From NCBI GenBank assembly GCA_019115045.1, contig DXEI01000128.1, positions 1 through 33,766 on the forward strand: a DNA stretch of 33,766 nt, in the 5' to 3' direction. The position numbers and the translations under genes are program-made. Within the stretch, counting starts at the first letter, position 1. Each line of letters opens with the position of its first letter. The notes under the pieces were generated by a model that searched no databases, was not told the origin of the DNA, and worked only from the letters and a program-made list of their open reading frames with translations. Source of the stretch: Candidatus Gemmiger excrementipullorum. Its GTDB lineage: Bacteria > Bacillota > Clostridia > Oscillospirales > Ruminococcaceae. Below, in pieces: positions 16,131-19,701 of the stretch.

Positions 16131-18032
16131 TTATTGCATCAGGCCGCAGACGAGCTGGGCGTAGGCCACGGGGTCGTCGATGGGCAGCCCCGCGATGAGC
16201 AGCGCCTGGTCATAGAGCAGCTCGGCATACCGGGCGACTTTGGCGCTGTCGCCGGCTTCATGCGCGGCTTTGAGCGCGGCGAACACCGGGTGGCCGGGGT
16301 TGAGTTCCAGCACCTTGGTGCTCTCGACGCCTTCGCCGTTGGGCATGCGGCGCAGCACTTTTTCCATCTCCATCGAGATGCCGCCCTCGCTGGACAGCGT
16401 GACGGGGTGCTCCTGCAGCGTGGGGTTGACCTTGACCTCCTTGACTTTGCCGTTCAGCGCTTTCTGGATCTCGTCAAACAGGTCCTTGTTCTCGGTGGCG
16501 GTCTGCTCGGCGGCTTTCTTTTCTTCCTCGGTCTCCAGGCCCAGGTCGCCGGCGTTGATGTTCTTGAACTCTTTTTCTTTATAGTCGTGCATCATCTGCA
16601 GGCAGAACTCGTCGACGTCCTCGGTGCACAGCAGCAGGTCGTAGCCCTTGCTCAGCACCAGCTGGGCGTTGGGCAGCTTGCCCAGGCGATCGAGGTCGTC
16701 GCCGGCCGCAAAGTAGATGCACTTCTGCCCCTCGGGCATGGCTTCGATATATTCGTCGAGGGTGACGTACTTCTTCTCTTTGGCGGACCAGAACAGCAGC
16801 AGGTCGGCCAGCAGGTCCTTGTGCATGCCGTAGTCGCCGTAGATGCCGAACTTGATCTGGCGGCCGAAGGATTTCCAGAACGTCTCGTACTTTTCGCGGT
16901 CGTTGACGAGCATGGCGTGCAGCTCGTTCTTGATCTTCTTCTCCAGGCTGTTGCGCATCAGCTTGAGCTGGGCGTCCTTTTGCAGCGTCTCGCGGCTGAT
17001 GTTCAGGCTCAGGTCCTCGCTGTCGACGACGCCCTTGACAAAGCTGAAGTAGTCGGGCAGCAGGTCGGCGCATTTTTCCATGATGAGCACGCCGGAAGCG
17101 TACAGCGCCAGGCCCTTCTCGTACTCTTTGGTGTAGTAGTCGTAGGGCGTGCGGCCGGGGATAAACAGCAGCGCCGTATAGGTGGCCGTGCCCTCGGTGC
17201 GGCTGGTGATGACGCGCAGCGGGTCGGTGTAGTCCATGAACTTGGACTTGTAGAACTCGTTGTAATCCTCGTCCTTGACCTCGCTCTTGGCGCGCTTCCA
17301 GATCGGCACCATGCTGTTGAGGGTCTCGAGCTCGGTGTAGGTCTCGTACTCGGGCTTGTAGTCGTCGCCGGCATCCTCCGGTTTGGGTTTCTGGCGGGAC
17401 TTTTCGCGGTACATCGTGATGGGGAAATGGATGTAGTCGCTGTATTTTTTGACAAGCCCGGCCAGCGTGTACTCGTCGAGGTAGTCGCTGTAATGCTCGG
17501 TGTCGGTATCTTCTTTCAGCACCAGGATGACCTCGGTGCCGACGTCGTCCTTGTCGGCCTCGGTCAAGGTATAGCCCTCGACGCCCTTGGACTCCCACTT
17601 CCAGGCGGTGTCCGCGCCCTGCGCGCGGGAAATAACGGTGACCTTAGACGCCACCATGAACGCCGAGTAGAAGCCGACGCCGAACTGGCCGATGATGTCG
17701 ATGTTATCGCTCTGGTTTTCGGTCTTGAAATCCAGCGAGCCGGAGCGCGCGATGGTGCCGAGGTTCTTTTCGAGCTCCTCTTTGCTCATGCCGATGCCGT
17801 TGTCGCGGATGGTCAGCGTGCGGCTGTCTTTGTCGGGCTGGATGTGGATGTGCAAATCATCCTTGCCGATGCCCATGGAGGTATCGGTCAGGCTCATGAA
17901 ATAGCGCTTGTCGCAGGCGTCCGACGCGTTGGAGATCAGCTCGCGCAGAAAGATCTCGCGGTTGGTGTAGATAGAATTGATCATCAGGTCGAGCAGTTTT
18001 TTGCTCTCGGCCTTAAATTGACGCATTGCCAT
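16131..18032 (-). CDS. htpG: Molecular chaperone HtpG (Hsp90)
   Basis: MAMRQFKAESKKLLDLMINSIYTNREIFLRELISNASDACDKRYF...LTIRDNGIGMSKEELEKNLGTIARSGS...IGQFGVGFYSAFMVASKVTV. The ORF track extends to 18065, but ATG at 18032 fits conserved HtpG N-termini better. Confidence 0.95.
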   Translation of the reverse strand: MAMRQFKAESKKLLDLMINSIYTNREIFLRELISNASDACDKRYFMSLTDTSMGIGKDDLHIHIQPDKDSRTLTIRDNGIGMSKEELEKNLGTIARSGSLDFKTENQSDNIDIIGQFGVGFYSAFMVASKVTVISRAQGADTAWKWESKGVEGYTLTEADKDDVGTEVILVLKEDTDTEHYSDYLDEYTLAGLVKKYSDYIHFPITMYREKSRQKPKPEDAGDDYKPEYETYTELETLNSMVPIWKRAKSEVKDEDYNEFYKSKFMDYTDPLRVITSRTEGTATYTALLFIPGRTPYDYYTKEYEKGLALYASGVLIMEKCADLLPDYFSFVKGVVDSEDLSLNISRETLQKDAQLKLMRNSLEKKIKNELHAMLVNDREKYETFWKSFGRQIKFGIYGDYGMHKDLLADLLLFWSAKEKKYVTLDEYIEAMPEGQKCIYFAAGDDLDRLGKLPNAQLVLSKGYDLLLCTEDVDEFCLQMMHDYKEKEFKNINAGDLGLETEEEKKAAEQTATENKDLFDEIQKALNGKVKEVKVNPTLQEHPVTLSSEGGISMEMEKVLRRMPNGEGVESTKVLELNPGHPVFAALKAAHEAGDSAKVARYAELLYDQALLIAGLPIDDPVAYAQLVCGLMQ

Positions 18033-18058
18033 GCAGAAAGACCTCTCTTTTGGGTAAA

Positions 18059-18085
18059 TTAGCACTCTTTTGCTTGAACTGCTAA
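18059..18085. promoter_or_regulatory. CIRCE-like HrcA operator, proximal copy
   Basis: TTAGCACTC-N9-AACTGCTAA against CIRCE TTAGCACTC-N9-GAGTGCTAA: left arm 9/9, right arm 7/9, exact 9-nt spacer. Confidence 0.8.
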
Positions 18086-18089
18086 ATGT

Positions 18090-18118
18090 AGTTTAGCACC
18101 CTTTGCAGCAAAGTGCAA
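18090..18118 (-). promoter_or_regulatory. Putative htpG promoter overlapping the distal CIRCE-like element
   Basis: Minus strand TTGCAC (18113-18118), 17 bp, TAAACT (18090-18095). Confidence 0.55.
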
Positions 18119-18119
18119 G
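18093..18119. promoter_or_regulatory. Second, degenerate CIRCE-like operator, distal copy
   Basis: TTAGCACCC-N9-AAGTGCAAG: left arm 8/9, right arm 6/9, exact 9-nt spacer. Confidence 0.55.
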
Positions 18120-18223: not shown

Positions 18224-18718
18224 ATGTCGAAATACGGCGACAAAGCCTACGAGGCATTTTTTAAAGGGTACAACTGCAGCCAGTGCGTGGCGCTGGCGTT
18301 CGCCGCCGAGATGGGCCTGACCGAGGAACAGGCGCTGAAACTTTCCTCCGGCTTTGGCGGCGGCATGGGCCGCATGCGGGAGGTATGCGGCGCGTTTTCG
18401 GGCGCGGTGCTGGTGCTGGGCGCGCTGTACGGCAACACCGACCCGGCGCTGAAAACGCAGACCTATACCGAGGTGCAGGCCCTGGCCGCGCAGTACCGCG
18501 CGCGCAGCGGCGGGGGCAGCATCGTCTGCCGCGAGCTGCTGGGCCTGAAACAGGCCGAGGGCAGCCCCGTGGCCAGCCCCCGCACGGCCGACTACTACAA
18601 AAAGCGCCCCTGCCCCGAGCTGGTGCGCCTGGCCGCCGACTTGATGGCCGAATACATAGAACAGCACCCGCGCCCGGCCGCTGACGCCGGCCAAGAGAAG
18701 GGAGACGCCCCGGTATGA
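18224..18718 (+). CDS. C_GCAxxG_C_C family protein (Cys-rich, putative redox/metal protein)
   Basis: MSKYGDKAYEAFFKGYNCSQCVALAFAAEMGLTEEQALKLSSGFGGGMGRMREVCGAFSGAVLVLG...IVCRELLG...CPELVRLAADLMAEYIE: family Cys pattern. Confidence 0.85.
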   Translation: MSKYGDKAYEAFFKGYNCSQCVALAFAAEMGLTEEQALKLSSGFGGGMGRMREVCGAFSGAVLVLGALYGNTDPALKTQTYTEVQALAAQYRARSGGGSIVCRELLGLKQAEGSPVASPRTADYYKKRPCPELVRLAADLMAEYIEQHPRPAADAGQEKGDAPV

Positions 18719-19701
18719 AGATCTTTTTTTACGCGCTGCGCCCGTTTGATGAGCTGCCCTACTGCGAGCCCAACCGCCAAAAGTACGGCATCGACTATGC
18801 CTGGACGGCCGAGACGCCGAACCCCGGCAACCTGCAGCTGGCCGAAGGCTGCGACGCCGTGAGCACCAACCCCTGCGAGGTCCGGCCCGAATACCTGGAA
18901 GCCTTTGCCCGCATGGGCGTCAAGTACCTGCCCTGCCGCAGCATAGGCTACGACCACCTGCCGCTGGACGCCGCCAAACGCCTGGGCCTGCGCGTGAGCC
19001 ACAGCCATTACCCGCCCGAGGGTGTGGCCAACTACGCCGTTATGCTGATGTTGATGGCTACGCGCAAGATGAACCAGATCATGCTGCGCGCCGCCGTGCA
19101 GGACTACTCGCTGCCCGGCAAGATGGGGCGCGACCTTTCGGGGTGCACGGTGGGCGTGGTCGGCACCGGCAAGATCGGCAGCACGGTCATCCGGCATCTG
19201 AGCGCGTTCGGCTGCAAGCTGCTGGCCTACGACCTGTACCCCAACGACGCCGTGCGCGCCTGGGCCGACTATGTGCCGCTGGCGGAACTGTACGCGCGCA
19301 GCGACGTGATCACGCTACACCTGAACGCCACGCCGGAGAACCACCACCTGATCGACGCGGCGGCCATTGCCCAAATGAAGGACGGCGTGCTGCTGGTGAA
19401 CACGGCGCGCGGGACGCTGATCGACCCGCAGGCGCTGGTAGAAGGCCTGGAAAGCGGCAAGATCGGCGGCGCCGGGCTGGACGTGGTGGAGGACGAAGCC
19501 GGCCTTTGCTACTATGACCGCCGCGGCGAAGCGCTGGCAAACCGCGAGCTGAACCTGCTGCGCAGTTTCCCCAACGTCATCGTCAGCCCGCACACGGCGT
19601 TTTACACCGACGTCAACGTGGCCAGCATGGTGGAAAGCGCCTTTGAGGCGACGGCCGCCTTTGCCGCCGGCCGCCCCTGCCCCTGCGAGGTGCCGCTGTG
19701 A
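18715..19701 (+). CDS. D-isomer specific 2-hydroxyacid dehydrogenase, D-lactate dehydrogenase/VanH-like
   Basis: GVKYLPCRSIGYDHLPLDAAKRLGLRVSHSHYPPEGVANYAVMLMLMATRK...TVGVVGTGKIGSTVIRHLSAFGCKLLAYD...LLVNTARGTLIDPQALVEGLESGKIGGAGLDVVEDE...NVIVSPHTAFYT. Confidence 0.92.
   Translation: MKIFFYALRPFDELPYCEPNRQKYGIDYAWTAETPNPGNLQLAEGCDAVSTNPCEVRPEYLEAFARMGVKYLPCRSIGYDHLPLDAAKRLGLRVSHSHYPPEGVANYAVMLMLMATRKMNQIMLRAAVQDYSLPGKMGRDLSGCTVGVVGTGKIGSTVIRHLSAFGCKLLAYDLYPNDAVRAWADYVPLAELYARSDVITLHLNATPENHHLIDAAAIAQMKDGVLLVNTARGTLIDPQALVEGLESGKIGGAGLDVVEDEAGLCYYDRRGEALANRELNLLRSFPNVIVSPHTAFYTDVNVASMVESAFEATAAFAAGRPCPCEVPL

Follow-up and report, generated by a model that had tools for sequence, protein, structure and literature searches.

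Putative tandem HrcA operators upstream of htpG in Gemmiger, the distal one superimposed on the promoter

Results

We analysed a stretch of 33,766 nt (the window) from contig DXEI01000128.1 of Candidatus Gemmiger excrementipullorum. The source genome is a Gemmiger, with an HtpG that is 90-99% identical to those of its closest named relatives, Gemmiger MAGs and G. formicilis. The htpG gene, coding for the bacterial Hsp90 (profile NF003555, 2.9e-208), occupies positions 16131..18032 of the minus strand and is read leftward. A probable ribosome binding site, GAGAGG (18042..18047, minus strand), lies 9 nt before its ATG at 18032. On the plus strand, a gene of the C-GCAxxG-C-C family (18224-18718, ATG at 18224) diverges from htpG and adjoins it throughout Gemmiger and its sister lineage. 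It is followed by a plus-strand gene (18715-19701) for a D-2-hydroxyacid dehydrogenase, a relative of VanH-type D-lactate dehydrogenases that scores below the curated cut-offs of those families.

Two 27-bp inverted repeats of the CIRCE type, 34 bp apart from start to start and each with a 9-nt spacer, lie upstream of htpG, with the coordinates and letters given in an earlier note on this DNA. The proximal repeat (18059-18085, minus strand) reads TTAGCACTC-N9-AACTGCTAA in forward-strand letters and TTAGCAGTT-N9-GAGTGCTAA towards htpG, and the distal repeat (18093-18119, minus strand), a putative operator, reads TTAGCACCC-N9-AAGTGCAAG and CTTGCACTT-N9-GGGTGCTAA, respectively. The complete order towards htpG is CTTGCACTT-tgctgcaaa-GGGTGCTAA-actacat-TTAGCAGTT-caagcaaaa-GAGTGCTAA, and then GAGAGG. 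Mismatches were counted out of 18 against TTAGCACTC-N9-GAGTGCTAA with a spacer of exactly 9 nt. By this measure the proximal site, with 2/18 mismatches, is the only CIRCE with ≤3 mismatches in the window, where shuffles led us to expect 0, and the distal site has 4 mismatches (3-6 in the genus), its outer left arm departing from the consensus at position 1 (C for T) and position 3 (T for A). A site with ≤4 mismatches turned up in 15/20000 shuffles of the 138-bp intergenic remainder, counting both strands. A scoring matrix built from CIRCE sites that precede htpG in other genera ranked the proximal site first and the distal site second in the window, with scores of 27.2 and 11.9 on the htpG strand and -0.8 for the next best match.

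The distal site is superimposed on the htpG promoter TTGCAC-17-TAAACT, which the earlier note had also recognised and which is kept across the genus. The -35 box TTGCAC (18113..18118, minus strand) falls inside the left arm, and the first three bases of the -10 box TAAACT (18090..18095, minus strand) form part of the right arm. In the -35 box, TTGC and the last C are invariant and the fifth base is A in 26/28 Gemmiger rows; the last three places are mostly occupied by other bases in relatives, which also mostly have TAT at the place of the first -10 bases. From this promoter, transcription would be expected to start at about 18083, at the edge of the proximal CIRCE, which itself sits between the promoter and the start codon. 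We dropped an alternative promoter, TTGAAA-18-TAAATT (18162-18133), for lack of sequence conservation at that place.

HrcA is encoded in the genome (PF01628, 4.5e-34; TIGR00331 above cut-off), and an alignment of this protein with the solved HrcA homolog 1stz spans almost all of its sequence and takes in the DNA-binding part. A pattern search at ≤3 mismatches located five CIRCE sites in the whole genome and none for the reversed control pattern. Apart from the htpG site, they precede hrcA-grpE, groES, a clpB-like gene (Clp_N and AAA domains) and an Hsp20 gene, and other Gemmiger species have CIRCE before the same genes. This places htpG in a predicted HrcA regulon of at least five units. The CIRCE/HrcA reading of the proximal site, as proposed in the earlier note, is well supported by sequence comparison because hrcA is present, CIRCE precedes both hrcA and groES, and nearly all relatives keep the proximal site.

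The sites before the clpB-like and hsp20 genes were seen in L002, L003, L004 and L005 (own genome C100, C17, C86, C88). Both clpB and hsp20 are controlled by CtsR in many Firmicutes. CtsR was absent from 25/25 Gemmiger genomes and present in just 15/99 genomes of the family. Because CIRCE stands at these two genes and CtsR is rare in the family, some of the CtsR regulon may have passed to HrcA. We rejected the loss of CtsR as a reason for the distal htpG site, since most genomes of the family are without CtsR too. In two Gemmiger species, a CIRCE-like site with 3 mismatches (L267:1132-1158 and L272:1084-1110) lies after a TTGACA- or TTGACG-type promoter and before a gene for a CobW-family GTPase (PF02492), possibly a new HrcA target.

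Outside the genus, CIRCE at htpG was the usual arrangement. Among 100 upstream regions sampled from other genera of the family, 96 carried a site with ≤3 mismatches, 62 of them perfect, whereas shuffled controls never reached ≤4 mismatches. In a phylum-wide sample, CIRCE was present at htpG in 22/36 cases, and 17/26 families had it at ≤2 mismatches. On this comparison, the predicted HrcA/CIRCE link of htpG is the rule in the family and common in the phylum. Three genomes of two other genera have a different htpG tandem (L159 in G132, L162 in G042 and L163 in G164), with a second CIRCE-like copy 23 bp downstream that shares part of the first copy's arm; its origin is separate from that in Gemmiger.

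Within Gemmiger, the proximal site has 0-2 mismatches in all rows. The distal site lies exactly 34 bp from it in 28 of 29 distinct upstream sequences, with 3-6 mismatches; the exception, L054, has an indel and has lost the distal site, with the proximal one kept. Across the 28 rows, the distal arms hold 1.85 and 1.65 bits per column, whereas the spacer has 0.54 and the upstream flank 0.64, and in most rows the matrix score is 11.9 to 18.5, far above background. The strong proximal and weak distal sites described in the earlier note are therefore supported as a tandem by conservation throughout the genus. Five Gemmiger sequences have a weak distal site (5-6 mismatches). Because the distal site is weak in these five and lost in L054 without loss of the proximal site, it is not essential. 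The sister lineage (L063/L064, with the same sequence in G150) has a poor version with 6 mismatches. This lineage aside, the distal site was not found at the 34-bp register in any other genus checked, where the lowest count was 8 mismatches. In an HtpG tree in which a few forks are poorly supported, the weak versions form two clades nested among strong ones, a pattern that fits one gain followed by partial decay.

At the place of the distal site, relatives have an ordinary promoter, often C-TTGATT-TT ... TAT, and the same promoter register shows 3-6 mismatches to CIRCE in Gemmiger but 6-12 in other genera. The differences that make a CIRCE in Gemmiger are C5, A6, C7, G19, A20, T22, G23, C24 and A27. 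Compared with 61 aligned outgroup promoters, C5 and C7 of the left arm are invariant in Gemmiger (34% and 11% in the outgroup), as are T22 and G23 (36% and 23%), and G19 and A27 reach 89% and 68% (15% and 2%). Some conserved bases (TTG, TG-N-TA) are accounted for by the promoter alone, but the arms are conserved beyond promoter needs, with positions 5, 7, 19-21 and 27 moved to CIRCE bases. Several of the changes, C5, C7 and A27 above all, take the promoter away from the promoter consensus, which suggests that some DNA-binding protein distinct from RNA polymerase has exerted selection. Where the distal site has been lost or weakened, in L054 and L046, TATAGT replaces TAAACT and is closer to the promoter consensus. 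The restriction of the distal copy to Gemmiger and its sister lineage, together with promoter bases turned into CIRCE bases, suggests a real second HrcA operator that has grown inside the promoter.

Discussion

We consider it probable that this Gemmiger species has its htpG under class I (HrcA/CIRCE) heat-shock control through two operators, the distal one grown in the promoter. An HrcA dimer on the proximal CIRCE would sit over the transcription start, and another dimer, held less tightly at the distal site, would cover the -35 and -10 boxes and exclude RNA polymerase. With GroE titrated by unfolded proteins, HrcA would become inactive and leave both sites. Such a loss of activity is established for the HrcA of B. 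subtilis, and we assume it for Gemmiger. We infer that HrcA binds here and represses, as well as whatever tightness or grading the second site may add; graded repression by a strong and a weak site is plausible. Because 34 bp corresponds to about 3.2 helical turns, the dimers would be on different faces of the helix, and cooperativity is not predicted.

The proximal site would be an inheritance from a clostridial ancestor, and the distal site would have arisen at the root of Gemmiger, or shortly before it, through base changes in the existing promoter, with which it now shares bases. Somewhat more guardedly, we favour the view that the -35 and -10 boxes of htpG evolved in place into a functional second operator at the base of the genus, that selection for repressor binding holds the promoter off consensus, and that living species retain intermediate and decayed stages.

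It is also conceivable, though rather unlikely, that the proximal CIRCE is the only operator and that the distal repeat is simply the htpG promoter of the genus, with an extended -10 (TGC-TAAACT) and an unchanging -35 region, and owes its likeness to CIRCE to descent and chance. The two boxes do fall exactly on the distal arms, the family-wide pattern C-TTGATT-TT already agrees with the arm at several bases, and the arms have decayed in some Gemmiger species. However, the Gemmiger changes at positions 5, 7 and 27 leave the promoter consensus and approach CIRCE, matrix scores in most rows are far above background, and G19, A20 and G21 fall in the promoter spacer, where to our knowledge sigma-A has no base preference.

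We give still less credence to the idea that HrcA controls both directions, with the distal site acting for the divergent C-GCAxxG-C-C family gene instead of, or in addition to, htpG. That gene stays beside htpG in the genus and the sister lineage, but what the distal site overlaps is the conserved promoter of htpG and no recognised promoter of the divergent gene, and the sole promoter-like match of a consensus scan lies on the htpG strand in sequence that is not conserved. The least credible proposal is that of the earlier note, a recent rewiring of Hsp90 into the HrcA regulon. It took its cue from B. subtilis, where htpG is a class IV heat-shock gene under positive control (PMC3408451, and the title of Versteeg 2003 in its reference list). 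It is contradicted by the frequency of CIRCE at htpG in the family and the phylum, and by published accounts of two Clostridium species: HrcA control of htpG is already proposed for C. acetobutylicum (CAC3315, PMC3828012) and for C. cellulovorans, where an exact CIRCE is reported at hsp90 (Clocel_0510, PMC8336468). B. subtilis is the wrong yardstick for htpG in the Gemmiger group.

Both Clostridium species resemble Gemmiger in having CIRCE upstream of htpG, HrcA in the genome and a class I assignment. Their passages on htpG mention no second site, whereas Gemmiger has a putative second operator on the promoter. The arms of the groESL CIRCE of Streptococcus thermophilus, TTAGCAGTT-N9-GAGTGCTAA, are identical to those of the Gemmiger proximal site (PMC3192767), but that is a single CIRCE at another gene, and Gemmiger htpG has two sites. 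Two CIRCE elements on one promoter are already known. The dnaK operon of Lactococcus lactis, as cited in PMC1676014, has two that overlap the promoter, and hrcA of L. plantarum also has two (PMC3842655). As described there, these cases share with Gemmiger htpG the presence of two CIRCE-type elements per promoter and, in L. lactis, the promoter overlap, but they concern a different gene in a distant lineage, and the distal Gemmiger copy is degenerate and visibly derived from a promoter. Our literature search found no paper under tandem CIRCE and none on Gemmiger with HrcA. What is new here is the distal copy at Gemmiger htpG, which is of note mainly for its evolutionary series.

For the biology of these bacteria, this reading would place the Hsp90 of Gemmiger from the gut, and that of most of the family, in the HrcA class, instead of in class IV, where analogy with B. 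subtilis would put it. The distal site would also provide a clean comparative series of a promoter gaining a repressor site base by base.
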